Position numbers and translations under genes: made by a program
The notes under the pieces: generated by a model
What the model was told of the DNA's origin: nothing
Database searches by the model: none
The model's input: the letters and a program-made list of their open reading frames with translations, nothing else
Shown: in pieces, positions 17,128 to 22,878 of the stretch
How positions within the stretch are numbered: the first letter of the stretch is position 1
Layout of the letters: the number at the start of each line of letters is the position of its first letter
Virus record (IMG/VR): IMGVR_UViG_3300031669_000246
Span: 1 to 23,165 of that record
Length of the DNA stretch: 23,165 bases
Source: a virus
Strand: one strand, 5' to 3'

Positions 17128-18797
17128 CCGCCTGATCCTATCTTGCCGCCAGCGTCCGGCGGCGACGCGGGCCCCTGGTAGACGGCCGGAAGCTCCAGCC
17201 CGCGATCCTTGAACCGCTGAATCTCGACCGCGCGCTGGTCGACGATCTCTTCCCAATCCTCGCCCTGCTCGCCGGCCTGATCCTCGAGCGTTGTCAGCCC
17301 GGTCTGCATTGCCAGCGAAGCAGCGCGGATTTCATCCAGCGGGTTGACCCAGCCGCGGCCAGGCCGCAGCCAGCGACAGGCCGAATAGGCGCCGCGCATT
17401 TCCTCGAACGGTGGAGCGCCGGCGGGAAGCGGCAGATCCTCGACGTCGAAGAATTCCTCCAGCGCAGCGATTCGCACCGGCATGGCGAACCCGGTGTCGA
17501 AATTCTTCGATCGACGGTCGAATGTCTTCAGCACCTCGTTGGTTGCGCCCCGGAAGCTGCTGTAGTTGGTCCGCGAGAAATCGCCGGAAAGCTGCTCATA
17601 GGTGATGCCCAGGCCGGACGCAACGTGCCGAAGGATGGCCACCTCGAACGGCTCGAAGTTGCCCGTCGGGTGATTCGCGGAGACCGAGCCGATGTCCTCG
17701 CCCGGGAACAGGTGCGTCATCTGCGCGCCGCCCAGCATGATCCGATTGCGATCGCTCCAGAATTCCTCGCGCATATCCTGATACTGGCCGAGGTTGACTT
17801 CCGATTCCTTGTCGCTGCCGAGTGCTTCCTCGACCATCTGCGGGTCAAACGGGCTCTTCACGTAGGCGGCAAAGATTGCATTGATGATCGCCGCGTCCAG
17901 CTCGACCGAGTCGTATTTCACCAGCATCTTGATGCGCTGCAGCACGGGCGCCAGCACGCCGGCGCCGCCGTGGTGCTGGCCTGCCCGGTCGTGGTCGTAA
18001 TCGTGAACGATGATCGGCCGCCCCCACGCGGTCCGCCGCGGGAAGTAGTCCCAATGGACCGCCTTGGCCGCCGAGAACCAGTCGCCCTGATGCGCGCGCC
18101 GGATCCAGTAGCCCAGCGGAACGCCGTACTGGTCGACCTCCACGCCGCCGCGCATGGTCTGTTGGTCGAACCGAAGCTGCGGGTTGCTCAGCCGGTCCGG
18201 GTCGATGAGCTGCAGCGAGGTGGCATACCTGGCGCGGCCAGGCCCAACCAATTCCGGCCGCCACAGCATCGCCCCGAGCGCGTCGCCGTCCAGCAGCTTG
18301 TGGCGCATGGCCAGCCAGAACAACTGCGCCACGGAAAGCTGCTGCATGCCGTCGCAGTAGTGCTCCGGGTCGGTTGCCCACGTCCGCCAGCAGGCGTCAA
18401 TGGCATGGCCAAACTCGTCCGCCCAGGTGGCATCGAACGCCGGGTTGCCGGAGAAGTAACTCAACGCCCGGTAGTCCGGCTTGCTGATCGGTCGGAAATT
18501 CGCGCCGATCGTGTTGTCGAGGATGCGCGAAATGCCGCCGCGCACCCAGCCGTCGTTGCGGTCCGCGTCGCGCGTGCGAGCGACGATGCGGTCCCGCTGG
18601 CCGAAGGAAAGCTCGCCATCCGGCGACCACAGGTAGGGACGCCACGCCTCCATCGCGCCGCCATAAATGTCGGCAGCATCGTATGGGATGTTCGACGAAC
18701 CGCTGAGCGCGCGCGCGCCTGGCCGGCCCACAACGCCGCTCTGTCGCCTGCTCGGTGGCAGCGGCCGGCCATAGGCATCAAGGATCGCGACCATCAT
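17124..18797 (-). CDS. Portal protein, lambda gpB family
   Basis: The 557-residue protein is the dodecameric portal through which DNA is packaged. Lambda-family features include GAMEAWRPYLWSPDGELSFG, RDADRNDGWVRGGISRILDN and TIGANFRPISKPD near the N-terminus. Further on are LLDGDALGAMLWRPELVGPG, the segment RAHQGDWFSAAKAVHWDYFP and ASGLGITYEQLSGDFSRTNY followed by SSFRGA. Length is close to lambda gpB (533). ATG 18797 overlaps gpW by four bases; the second codon is also ATG, so initiation at 18794 is possible. The C-terminus, Pro/Gly-rich, overlaps the protease start. Confidence 0.94.
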   Translation of the reverse strand: MMVAILDAYGRPLPPSRRQSGVVGRPGARALSGSSNIPYDAADIYGGAMEAWRPYLWSPDGELSFGQRDRIVARTRDADRNDGWVRGGISRILDNTIGANFRPISKPDYRALSYFSGNPAFDATWADEFGHAIDACWRTWATDPEHYCDGMQQLSVAQLFWLAMRHKLLDGDALGAMLWRPELVGPGRARYATSLQLIDPDRLSNPQLRFDQQTMRGGVEVDQYGVPLGYWIRRAHQGDWFSAAKAVHWDYFPRRTAWGRPIIVHDYDHDRAGQHHGGAGVLAPVLQRIKMLVKYDSVELDAAIINAIFAAYVKSPFDPQMVEEALGSDKESEVNLGQYQDMREEFWSDRNRIMLGGAQMTHLFPGEDIGSVSANHPTGNFEPFEVAILRHVASGLGITYEQLSGDFSRTNYSSFRGATNEVLKTFDRRSKNFDTGFAMPVRIAALEEFFDVEDLPLPAGAPPFEEMRGAYSACRWLRPGRGWVNPLDEIRAASLAMQTGLTTLEDQAGEQGEDWEEIVDQRAVEIQRFKDRGLELPAVYQGPASPPDAGGKIGSGG

Positions 18798-19060
18798 CGG
18801 TATCCAACAGTAATCGGTCGGCGCCCGTGCCGGACGATACCAAGCTGAGCCTGCAATTCCTTGATTGTGGCGACAATGTTTGGAAGGCTTGCGGCAGTAT
18901 AGGTGACTGATTTCTGGCCGTCTCCCTGAGTGTAGTTCAACGTCACTGCCTTCGCTCCGGTAGACAGGTCAAGGTAGGCTTGCTGGGCGTTGGCAAGCGC
19001 CTGCTGCAACTGGACGGTGGACATTCCAGCGAAAATACTTGTGCTGCCGTTGAATCTCAT
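18794..19060 (-). CDS. gpW-like head-tail joining protein
   Basis: The 88-residue protein has the gpW pattern: a first helix (MSTVQLQQALANAQQAYLDL), a beta hairpin (AVTLNYTQGDGQKSVTYTAA), a second helix (LPNIVATIKELQAQLGI), and a basic C-terminus (RHGRRPITVGYR). Lambda gpW is 68 residues with the same helix-hairpin-helix layout and basic tail. It plugs the portal after packaging. The extra length is at the N-terminus (MRFNGSTSIFAG). ATG at 19060 has AGGA six bases upstream. Initiating at the internal ATG (MSTVQ, 12 codons later) cannot be excluded. Confidence 0.85.
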   Translation of the reverse strand: MRFNGSTSIFAGMSTVQLQQALANAQQAYLDLSTGAKAVTLNYTQGDGQKSVTYTAASLPNIVATIKELQAQLGIVRHGRRPITVGYR

Positions 19061-19084: not shown

Positions 19085-21118
19085 TTATGCCCCGGCAAGC
19101 CGGCCGGAGAAGCGGCTTTTCGTCTGGTCGCGGCCCTCGACCTTGATGCGCACGCCCCTAGGAACGGGCCGGCCCGGCTGCGCCTCGAATACCGGACCCT
19201 GTGCCTCTGTGCCATCCGCCGCCACAGGTCGCGGCTCGGCGGGCCGCACGGCTGGCACCGCAGGGCCAACATAGGTCGCGGTGACCGCCTCCGCTCGCTG
19301 GTTGAGCCGAAGTCCAAAATGCGTCAGCCCGCACAGCGCGGCATAGGCATAGACGCGCATGTCCAGCGCCTCGTTCGCCCGCCCCGGTCGAAGCTCCCAC
19401 ACGCGGAACCGCTGCCCACCGATCGACTTCGTGACCGACCGCTCCGCCACAAGCTGAGCGAACCAGTTGACGTCGCGGTCGGTCGAGAAGTGCATGTAGC
19501 CCGGGCCCGGTTTGTCCAGGTGCAGCCGAGACCGGACCGAGTCCTTCGCCGCGTTCACGCCGATGATGATCGGCCGGAAACTCGCCTTGTTGCGTGCCGA
19601 CGGCCGCTTGACTGGCCACACCGGAGACCTGGCGCCGCCGCGCGCCGACTCGCCCTTGATCGCCCAGACGTGCCGCCCCAGCCTGGCCTTGGCGAACTTG
19701 TAGACCGCCTGCGTTGCATGCCCTCCGGAGTCGACGCAGGTTGCCGTGACATCAAACTCTCGGCCGTCGGCGCGGGTCCACTTCCTTTTCAGAAATTCGT
19801 CGACGGTCTCCCACAACATCGGCTCCTGCGTGTCGCCCTCGATGACCTCGTGAGCAAGCGACCAGCTTTCCTCGTCGGCGCCCCAGCCGACAACCTCGAT
19901 CTCAACCCGATCGTCCTGCACGTCGATGCCCGCTGTCAGCACCGCGGCGCGCGGTGGCACCTCGCCTGGCCAGATTTCGCGGCGGGCAAGCAGGCTGGTC
20001 TCGCTCAGCGCCTTGTCGCCCCGGTCCTCGTACGGCTCGCCGCGCACCAAGTTGATGAAGGTTTGCCGCCGCAGCGGATCGGCCTTGACCTCCAGCCATT
20101 CGGCGACGAGCTTGCCCCACGACGCATTGACGTGCGGCGAATAGCCCGCCCAGATATGGAAGCCGGCATGGCCCTTGAACGGCTTGGTCGCGCGCCACTC
20201 GCCGCGGGCGATCATCTCCGGCTTATCGAATTCCTCGATGATGCAGCCATTCGAGGCGCACACGTAGAAAGCCGTCTCCGGCAAATGCCGCCCCTCGGCG
20301 TCGCGCCGCCATTTGATCCCATGCGGCAGATCCTTGCCGCCCCATTCCAAGACCTGCATCTCGCCGCAGTGTGGGCACGGCACGAAGTATTTCCGCTGGT
20401 CTGACTCGTCCCAGCTTTTCTCGATCCGCGAAATACCCTTGATCGTCGGCGTGCTGCCGAGCACTATTTTGCGGTTCCAGAAAGACACCGTGCGTTGCAC
20501 GGCCAGTGCTACCTGGTCGCCTTCCGACCCGGCCCCGCCTGCTGGGAAGCCGTCCACCTCGTCCAGCAGCACGACCCGCGCCGTGATGCGCCGGAAGCCG
20601 CCAGGGCTGTTGGCGCCCACCAGCGCCAGGCTGGAGCCGTTCAGCATGGTCTTGCGCAGGATCGTAGAGGTGGCGACCTTGGCCTTCGGCTTGCCGGCGA
20701 TCGCCGCCATGACGTCGATGTCGCGCAGCATCGGCACGATCTCGGTCTTCGAGAAGTCCTCGGCATCCTCGACCCGAGGCTGCACCACAAGCACGGCGCA
20801 CGGATCGTGCTGGAGGAAGTAGCCGATCGCGTTGGTCATCACGACCGAGTAGCCGACTCGCGCCGCCTTCATCACGGTAATCGTCTCGACGGCCGGATCG
20901 GTGATCGCGTCCGCGATGCCGGCCTGGTAGCGCCACGGCCGGAAGCGGCCCGGCTCCGCCGACGTGGATGTCAGCAGCGCGTGTTGTTCGGACCACTCAT
21001 TGAGCGACAGCACCCGTGGTGGCCGCAGGTTTTCGTCCCCGGCGGCCCGGAGGCTTTTCAGGACCCGCTCGGCCGCGTCCGCGTCCTGCCACGCCTGTTT
21101 TTTCGCCAAGGCCGCCAC
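19085..21118 (-). CDS. Terminase large subunit, GpA family
   Basis: The 677-residue packaging ATPase and nuclease is of the lambda GpA type. Visible are the adenine-side motif EPGRFRPWRYQAGI, the variant Walker A KAARVGYS (residues about 84 to 91, as in lambda gpA), Walker B RVVLLDEVDG (about 181 to 190) and the coupling segment LGSTPTIKG. A possible zinc knuckle is formed by CPHCG (248 to 252) with a later CASNGC. The nuclease domain starts at AVLTAGIDVQDDRVEIEVVG. Length is normal. It starts with GTG at 21118, with GGAGG nine bases upstream, so it overlaps the small subunit by 122 bases. Confidence 0.95.
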   Translation of the reverse strand: MAALAKKQAWQDADAAERVLKSLRAAGDENLRPPRVLSLNEWSEQHALLTSTSAEPGRFRPWRYQAGIADAITDPAVETITVMKAARVGYSVVMTNAIGYFLQHDPCAVLVVQPRVEDAEDFSKTEIVPMLRDIDVMAAIAGKPKAKVATSTILRKTMLNGSSLALVGANSPGGFRRITARVVLLDEVDGFPAGGAGSEGDQVALAVQRTVSFWNRKIVLGSTPTIKGISRIEKSWDESDQRKYFVPCPHCGEMQVLEWGGKDLPHGIKWRRDAEGRHLPETAFYVCASNGCIIEEFDKPEMIARGEWRATKPFKGHAGFHIWAGYSPHVNASWGKLVAEWLEVKADPLRRQTFINLVRGEPYEDRGDKALSETSLLARREIWPGEVPPRAAVLTAGIDVQDDRVEIEVVGWGADEESWSLAHEVIEGDTQEPMLWETVDEFLKRKWTRADGREFDVTATCVDSGGHATQAVYKFAKARLGRHVWAIKGESARGGARSPVWPVKRPSARNKASFRPIIIGVNAAKDSVRSRLHLDKPGPGYMHFSTDRDVNWFAQLVAERSVTKSIGGQRFRVWELRPGRANEALDMRVYAYAALCGLTHFGLRLNQRAEAVTATYVGPAVPAVRPAEPRPVAADGTEAQGPVFEAQPGRPVPRGVRIKVEGRDQTKSRFSGRLAGA

Positions 21119-21572
21119 CGCTCAGTTCCTCCAGCGCCTCCACGACCATCTGCCTGACTTCCGTCTCGACTTCACGGATCGTCTTTGCCCGGAAAGCCGC
21201 CGGCGCGATCTTCGCTGGCAACGCCAGCATCCGGGTCCGCAGTCGCGAGCATTCCTCGCCGTAGACCCGCGCTACCGTGCCGATGTCCGCAAGCTGGTCT
21301 CTCCGCTGCGCCAGCACAATCTCTGAATTGGCGGCGTCGGCCTCGACCTTGCGGCGTCTGGCCTCGCCGAGCGGCGTCTGTGTCGCCCGCTTTTTCCAGT
21401 AGCCGATGATCCACTGTACCGCCGCTGCCAGCGGGTAGCCGTCGCGTCCGGACTTCGGCAGGCCCTCGGCCGTAAGCTGTCGCAGTCGCTGTTCGGTCAG
21501 GCCGACGATCTTCGCCATGACGGGAGCGGGAACGATTAGGGGAGCGCGGGCCGGAGGATCTTCCTGGGGCAT
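20997..21572 (-). CDS. Terminase small subunit (Nu1-like)
   Basis: The product is 191 residues. The N-terminal part (VMAKIVGLTEQRLRQLTAEG followed by LPKSGRDGYPLAAAVQWIIG) is the winged-helix DNA-binding domain of Nu1-type subunits that recognise the packaging site. A long helix follows (EARRRKVEADAANSEIVLAQ, then ECSRLRTRMLALPAKIAPAA) for oligomerisation and contact with the large subunit. The C-terminus is basic and disordered and encoded in the overlap with the large subunit gene. ATG 21572 lacks a well-spaced ribosome site. An in-frame ATG at 21605, two bases after the preceding stop, is separated from it by a TAG at 21578-21576, so the original start may have been lost. Confidence 0.85.
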   Translation of the reverse strand: MPQEDPPARAPLIVPAPVMAKIVGLTEQRLRQLTAEGLPKSGRDGYPLAAAVQWIIGYWKKRATQTPLGEARRRKVEADAANSEIVLAQRRDQLADIGTVARVYGEECSRLRTRMLALPAKIAPAAFRAKTIREVETEVRQMVVEALEELSGGGLGEKTGVAGRGRGRAGPEKPPGRRGRKPAATTGAVAQ

Positions 21573-21607: not shown

Positions 21608-22249
21608 TCAGGCGCGCAGTCCTTCCAGCACCAGTCCGATATAGAGTGGTCTACCGGACCCCAAGGCGTGGCTTTCGGCCCGCCATTGCTTGATGATCTG
21701 GACTTTCCATCTCCGACAGAATTCCGCAAGTGCCCGATCGACAACCGCCACGACGTCTCGATGCGTGCCGACGGTCTGGTACTCCATACCCGCCAAGTTG
21801 GCGAGCAGCTTCGGCATCGAACCGAAGGTCATTTTCATGCGGCTGCCCTCGGTCAGCACCAGCCCGACCCGTTCGCCGGGGGCCACCGGCCTCCGTTCGG
21901 CCAGAATCATGCACTGCTCCCATGGGCCGCCGTAGGAGTCGAAGTCGAACACGTTGAAGGTCTTCAGGTCCAGGCAGCGCATCAGACGCCTGTTGTCGCA
22001 AACGAAAGCCGTCCGCTTGTCGCGGAAAAACCTCAGATCGCATCCGGCGTAGCTCGTCGCCTTCGCCCAGACCGCCCGAAAGAGAATGCCAGATCCCGCA
22101 AACCCGTCGAATACATGGGCCTCTGAGAACTGCGCCAGCACCGCCCTCCGAATGGCTATCTTGTCGGCCTTTCCTCTTTCGCTATTGTCGGTCTTGCCGT
22201 GCACGGCCTCATGGGCTTTGATCGACGCGGCCATTCCTTTCTTGCGCAT
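21608..22249 (-). CDS. SAM-dependent methyltransferase-like protein
   Basis: The product is 213 residues. Motif I is AHVFDGFAGSGILF (residues about 45 to 57). It is followed by an acidic strand YAGCDLRF and a motif IV-like element FNVFDFDSYGGPWEQ (99 to 112). The last does not match the DPPY/NPPY of ordinary adenine and cytosine-N4 enzymes. Its D-x-D-x-Y-G-x-P pattern recalls the DxDPYGSP motif of Trm1-type guanine-N2 tRNA methyltransferases. No target recognition domain is obvious. The ATG at 22249 has GAGG seven bases upstream and shares one base with the end of the 60-codon extension of the ParB gene (TGATG). It could modify phage DNA against restriction, or act on RNA; neither is shown. 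Confidence 0.6.
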   Translation of the reverse strand: MRKKGMAASIKAHEAVHGKTDNSERGKADKIAIRRAVLAQFSEAHVFDGFAGSGILFRAVWAKATSYAGCDLRFFRDKRTAFVCDNRRLMRCLDLKTFNVFDFDSYGGPWEQCMILAERRPVAPGERVGLVLTEGSRMKMTFGSMPKLLANLAGMEYQTVGTHRDVVAVVDRALAEFCRRWKVQIIKQWRAESHALGSGRPLYIGLVLEGLRA

Positions 22250-22431
22250 CAGTAGACCTCGGTCGTGCTTAGCTCCACCGTCACAAGCCCAAGATCGGCC
22301 ATCGCATCCTTCAGGCGGTCGAGAGCCTTGGCTTGATCCTGAAGTGGACCTCGGATTGTAATCCAGAACTGATCTTGAACCGGAGAGGCATCGAACAGTT
22401 TGGTTTCTGTTATCGACCCGTCGCCATCTTC
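22249..22431 (-). other. 60-codon open extension behind the amber stop of the ParB-like gene
   Basis: Directly after the TAG of the ParB-like gene the same frame runs on for 60 codons to a TGA that overlaps the methyltransferase start. The translation EDGDGSITETKLFDASPVQD then QFWITIRGPLQDQAKALDRL and KDAMADLGLVTVELSTTEVY looks like a true alpha/beta domain (strand FWITIRGP, helix, strand VTVEL). There is no ATG, GTG or TTG before the last third, so it cannot be a normal separate gene. It is either reached by readthrough, giving a 209-residue protein, or it is the remnant of a gene cut by a nonsense mutation. Confidence 0.65.
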
Positions 22432-22878
22432 CTAGGTTAGGTACTTCAAGGCGTCGAATCCAAGCAGGTCAGGAGTTATCCCATCGTCCGACAATTCTTG
22501 CAGTTGAGTTTCCAGCAGCGCTTCGTCCCACATTGAATTCAGCGCCAGCTTGTTGTCGGCGATCCGATAGGCGTTGATCTGCTTCTGCGTCCATCCACGC
22601 GCGACCATCGTGGGGACGTCTTTCAAACCAAGGGACTGCGCAGCAAGCGCTCGCCCGTGCCCGGCGATCAGCACACCGTTCTCGTCCACCAGAAGCGGAA
22701 TGGTGAAGCCGAACTCGCTGATGCTTCTGGCGATCTGCTTGACCTGCTCCGGGCTGTGCACCCTCGCGTTGCGAACCGAAGCCACCAGGCTCGCTACTGG
22801 CCATCGCTGGACGTCGTCAGCGGGCCAAGCCGGGGCGATCGGTTCAGCCTCGATGACGGGTTCGGCTCTCTTCGCCAT
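22432..22878 (-). CDS. ParB/sulfiredoxin-fold protein (phage ParB-like)
   Basis: The product is 148 residues. The ParB N-terminal domain is clear: RNARVHSPEQVKQIARSISE, FGFTIPLLVDENGVLIAGHG, then RALAAQSLGLKDVPTMVARG. The GHGR element (residues 73 to 76) is the nucleotide-binding box of the fold. The following WTQKQINAYRIADNKLALNS and WDEALLETQLQEL are typical of phage ParB-methyltransferase proteins. Here the methyltransferase is a separate downstream gene. The start at 22878 is chosen for GGAGG seven bases upstream; the frame is open to 23052, but that part is unlike a protein. The gene ends in TAG after FDALKYLT and the frame continues open for 60 more codons. Confidence 0.85.
   Translation of the reverse strand: MAKRAEPVIEAEPIAPAWPADDVQRWPVASLVASVRNARVHSPEQVKQIARSISEFGFTIPLLVDENGVLIAGHGRALAAQSLGLKDVPTMVARGWTQKQINAYRIADNKLALNSMWDEALLETQLQELSDDGITPDLLGFDALKYLT

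Follow-up and report, generated by a model that had tools for sequence, protein, structure and literature searches.

Among known systems, the locus analyzed here comes closest to the ParB-TLS locus of Iyer et al. (2013), which PMC6536676 describes for Paracoccus prophages. The same account relays a proposal in which ParB-like proteins guide the modification apparatus onto the viral genome as it is packaged, and it defines such a locus by a modification-type gene lying between the ParB-like gene and the gene of the terminase large subunit (PMC6536676). This is the arrangement that we found in the window, by which we mean the whole 23165-base stretch of an IMG/VR virus record: a ParB-like gene, an enzyme gene and the genes of the small and the large terminase subunit follow one another from 22878 to 19085. 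Judged by its gene order, the window locus is a phage ParB-to-terminase (ParB-TLS) locus, and its predicted role is DNA modification. The window holds one copy of the ParB-like gene, and this copy is interrupted by an in-frame amber codon. The features are as follows.

22435 to 22878, minus strand: N-terminal domain of the split gene, ParB/Srx fold, 148 residues (PF02195, phrog_620, AlphaFold model)
22432 to 22434, minus strand: amber codon (TAG), in frame, within the linker that joins the ParB domain to the C-terminal tail; no stop there in about 48 relatives
22252 to 22431, minus strand: cut-off C-terminal tail, 60 codons (profile of the relatives' tails, alignment)
22249 to 22251, minus strand: TGA, the natural gene end, sharing one base with the next ATG (TGATG)
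21608 to 22249, minus strand: partner gene, 213 aa, class I SAM-methyltransferase fold, nearest to Trm1, intact (AlphaFold, Foldseek)
20997 to 21572, minus strand: terminase small subunit (phrog_57, E=3e-21)
19085 to 21118, minus strand: terminase large subunit (GpA type), closing the ParB-to-terminase modification locus (PF20454 and PF05876)

In the sequence and ORF reading of the window, the ParB-like ORF (22878-22435) starts at ATG 22878 with a GGAGG upstream and is closed by the TAG. Past it the same frame runs for exactly 60 sense codons to a TGA, the A of which also begins the ATG of ORF 22249-21608, so that 148 residues, the stop and the extension add up to 209 positions for the joined gene. 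The first-pass annotation had placed the TAG, the open frame and the TGATG overlap correctly; its 147 residues for the short form should read 148. It had also called the extension devoid of a usable start codon, which is a fair description, as no in-frame ATG, GTG or TTG occurs before residue 43. A translation start inside the extension was discarded on this account, and so was the ATG at 22427, which is in the wrong frame and opens 5 codons only. A small gene at 18794-19060 (minus strand) has 55% GC compared with 65% GC for the window.

The N-terminal part of the split gene matches PF02195 (ParB_N) with 27.1 bits (cut-off 26.3; E=4.3e-6) and the ParB-like family phrog_620 with E=8e-45. In Foldseek searches the AlphaFold model of the joined protein matched structures of ParB, Noc, KorB and PadC, and its match to ParB-CTP structures (E=8e-8) agrees with a ParB/Srx fold; the model is weak in the linker, with pLDDT below 50 at residues 151-164. 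The Pfam and PHROG libraries detected the ParB domain only, with nothing significant in the extension.

Since 24% of the window's inter-stop runs reach 60 codons or more, openness of the frame alone is weak evidence that the extension belongs to the gene. Used alone as a query, the 60-residue extension found no match in viral contigs or annotated phages, because exact peptide patterns were too strict. Success came with a degenerate DNA pattern for W-[IV]-x-[IV]-R-G-P-L-x-x-Q-A, taken from the extension, which matched 52 IMG/VR contigs where we estimate about 2 chance matches. In every matched contig with enough upstream DNA, a ParB_N protein carries the module at its C-terminus, the frame being open throughout. 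A second search, using the alignment, added 4 contigs, and truncated sequences were completed. The module can be written as DxFWI(S/T)(V/I)RGPLxxQAxALxxL...VxVEL; none of the about 48 distinct sequences of sufficient length has a stop between this module and the ParB domain. The extension scored 74.6 bits against the profile of the module from other contigs. As these homologues had been picked with a pattern from the extension itself, the comparison was repeated with the 12 pattern residues masked, giving 24.3 bits versus 6.5 for the best of 5000 shuffles. Furthermore, the alignment of 35 proteins passes through the junction with only few gap columns, indicating that the TAG lies in a linker and that nothing is missing. 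In the window the FWISVRGPL tail is present and conserved, but it is not fused in frame, the TAG standing in between. Because the relatives carry the fusion without a stop, the TAG splits one 209-residue gene and the extension, as judged by sequence comparison, is its true C-terminal tail. The earlier supposition that the extension was once part of the gene is thereby borne out: in about 48 of 48 distinct cases relatives span both halves, with sense codons where the two meet, and they continue through the tail instead of all ending at the TAG position. Annotated phage and plasmid records yielded neither the tail nor its partner, also when a consensus-like tail or a protein related to the partner served as the query, and a scan of genome contigs returned one distant ParB only.

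To what extent a ParB-like gene of this family can do with no tail may be seen from the loci collected by ParB-core searches in which the tail was not used (about 105 further loci outside the RGPL set). In 65 of these loci the conserved GF motif is followed by a fused DNA methyltransferase, in 6 by a short EC..E..Q tail and in 6 by a NENSNGNA-type tail; the remaining ones have other tails of at least 43 residues. Compared with these roughly 105 loci, the window's gene stands alone in stopping within 12 residues of the GF motif, and a tail-less gene is therefore abnormal for the family. This bears on the idea that the stop at the TAG is the real design of the gene and the tail dispensable, for instance with the partner enzyme acting alone. 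The intact partner gene next to it would fit, but with no other tail-less ParB-core gene in the sample and a tail free of decay, we find such a functional short form hardly credible.

For the partner protein we found no family in Pfam, NCBIfam or PHROG, with essentially no PHROG match, and a search with the partner gene alone found no relatives. Its AlphaFold model (pLDDT 86.8) has a class I SAM-methyltransferase fold, the best Foldseek match being Aquifex Trm1 (3axs, E=1.6e-7). The motifs V-F-D-A-F-A-G-x-G and F-D-L-D-A-Y-G-S-P are retained in the relatives, and the window gene is intact and conserved; we take its D-x-D-A-Y-G-S-P to sit where Trm1 has D-P-F-G-S-P. About 46 listed relatives of the partner protein would define a new family.

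The identity of the neighboring enzyme goes with the type of the tail. Of 102 loci that carry the RGPL tail, 97 have a Trm1-like gene near by, as the window does (22249-21608); by our contig-name count, the gene is present in 54 of 56 distinct RGPL contigs, one of the other two being cut by the contig end. It is found in none of the 148 loci without this tail, some of which are without a ParB gene with full flanks. The Trm1-like gene often begins at the stop of the ParB gene or overlaps it (close or overlapping junctions in L063, L071, L117, L026 and L057). The EC..E..Q tail has an ABC-type ATPase directly behind it in all 6 loci, from 5 contigs (L123:1-1671; L019:2495-3675; L002, L017, L248). 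One of them, L123, belongs to a sister phage of the window by its terminase (large subunit 81% identical) and carries this other tail with its ATPase. The NENSNGNA tail is accompanied by a GNAT-like protein in 5 of 6 loci (L016:2465-3722; L003, L006, L187, L250), which we take, from reading the sequence by eye, to be a putative acetyltransferase like Mom of phage Mu.

Several further observations concern the diversity of these loci. In L123 the ABC-type ATPase is fused to a second domain that looks GNAT-like. Another type of tail ends in a CPxCG zinc-ribbon-like motif (L007, L176, L182, L183, L189, L200), and the GNAT-like, Mom-like gene also occurs in L218 and L221, loci with a zinc-ribbon-like tail. 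A longer tail of about 120-145 aa, 'KIDAPIYxPTGDCPP...RHIRFDFEQIAEFYAHADP', follows the ParB domain in L171, L206, L208, L213, L216, L222 and L242 as well as in halovirus HHTV-2 (L020). A common origin of the RGPL, EC..E..Q and NENSNGNA tails was considered and found unsupported, profile-profile probabilities being below 10% with no detectable homology.

Since different tails pair with different partners, the tails probably dock the partner enzymes, and the simplest reading of the gene neighborhoods is that each tail probably docks its own partner. It is tempting to speculate further about a docking code, in which each tail type recruits one DNA-modifying partner and the amber codon of the window either uncouples the pair or makes its dose depend on readthrough; we offer this extended version only tentatively. 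In intact relatives, a single protein of about 190-220 residues would combine an N-terminal ParB/Srx-fold domain, predicted to act on phage DNA, with a 40-60-residue tail that probably docks the methyltransferase-fold enzyme next door, and docking would bring this enzyme to the phage genome around packaging. With the amber codon in the linker, the main product would be the 148-residue ParB domain deprived of its tail, which, if the tail is a docking handle, would fail to recruit the intact enzyme. The partner itself should still be makeable, since its gene is intact and the Shine-Dalgarno-like GAGG belongs to this gene itself, but it may lose both translational coupling and recruitment.

How the amber codon came about can be addressed by asking whether the tail has drifted. 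The divergence of the extension relative to that of the ParB domain shows no excess compared with intact relatives (residual z = -0.5), and after removal of the pattern columns its conservation ranks 16 of 36. The GC content at the three codon positions is 0.67, 0.38 and 0.58 in the extension versus 0.65, 0.43 and 0.74 in the ParB part; in other words, the extension keeps the coding pattern, with a somewhat lower third position. The lack of excess divergence together with the coding GC pattern indicates that the stop either arose recently or does not exist in nature. The latter would be the case if the stop were a consensus error from sequencing or assembly of the metagenome and the phage had an intact 209-residue gene. 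The record is an IMG/VR virus contig, the amber site lies near its end (about 730 bases away), and the start, the ribosome site, the conservation of the tail, the coupling to the next ATG and the partner gene all look intact, as would be expected of an unbroken gene. However, a short-read consensus seldom contains a single wrong base that creates a stop, frameshifts being the commoner kind of error, and no frameshift is seen in the other 25 gene models of the window. When IMG/VR was probed with an exact 23-base stretch of the extension, no further copy turned up. We regard a real and recent nonsense change as the most likely reading, reasonably probable on this evidence, and a consensus error as second, possible though rather doubtful.

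The conserved tail and the frame open to its natural end would also suit a programmed or tolerated amber readthrough, with the TAG retained to give the tail to a minor fraction of the protein. Such a TAG might be expected to be conserved, but a stop at the junction is found in none of the about 48 relatives. Nor is a stimulating structure apparent, RNA folding around the TAG being average (z = 0.20) with no structure beyond chance, and no tRNA gene was found in the 23 kb window. The codon is followed by G (UAGG), which to our knowledge is not a known leaky context. We therefore hold readthrough to be improbable. The UAG codon is known to be reassigned to Gln in some gut phages, as noted in PMC9523058, and a phage in which TAG stands for an amino acid throughout (as in code 15 phages) would have an unbroken gene. 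Such phage-wide reassignment is largely refuted by the window's own genes: when TAG is read through, only 1 of 26 genes extends into conserved sequence, and ORF 9100-7334 ends in TAG with a TGA directly behind. An ordinary TAG stop in another gene, the lack of any tRNA gene (hence of a suppressor tRNA) within the window and average folding thus speak against reassignment and lend no support to programmed readthrough. As to the cause of the stop, the first-pass annotation had offered a recent nonsense mutation or low-dose readthrough; the former, or a sequence error, fits the data, while the latter goes unsupported. Causes other than recent nonsense, consensus error and readthrough are, even taken jointly, very improbable.

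Most likely, then, the amber codon does not represent a new kind of gene control; by itself it marks an ordinary broken or misread gene. Its follow-up brought to light a family of ParB-like phage proteins in which a short tail goes with a single uncharacterised methyltransferase-fold gene, as other tails do with other modification enzymes. Should the tails serve as docking handles, one could tell from them the enzyme with which a given phage marks its DNA before packaging, and the window would represent a natural uncoupling mutant.

Standalone phage ParB-like proteins, such as those of phrog_620, are like the window's protein in the N-terminal ParB domain, whereas the profile match stops before the window's tail, and their tails vary by type, with different partners. 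The ParB-N6/N4 methyltransferase fusions of phrog_498 share the ParB domain (E=1.7e-40) and the place in front of the terminase; however, they carry the enzyme in one chain, whereas that of the window is a separate and different methyltransferase-fold protein. The partner protein shares its fold with Trm1, the tRNA (guanine-26) dimethyltransferase, but the two are 14% identical, the partner has about half the length of Trm1, and it is encoded by a phage gene linked to ParB. Finally, the window has the gene order of the ParB-TLS locus, and ParB-DNA methyltransferase fusions are common in the same place (the 65 loci above), but it differs in having a separate Trm1-like protein, the FWISVRGPL tail and a ParB gene cut by the TAG.
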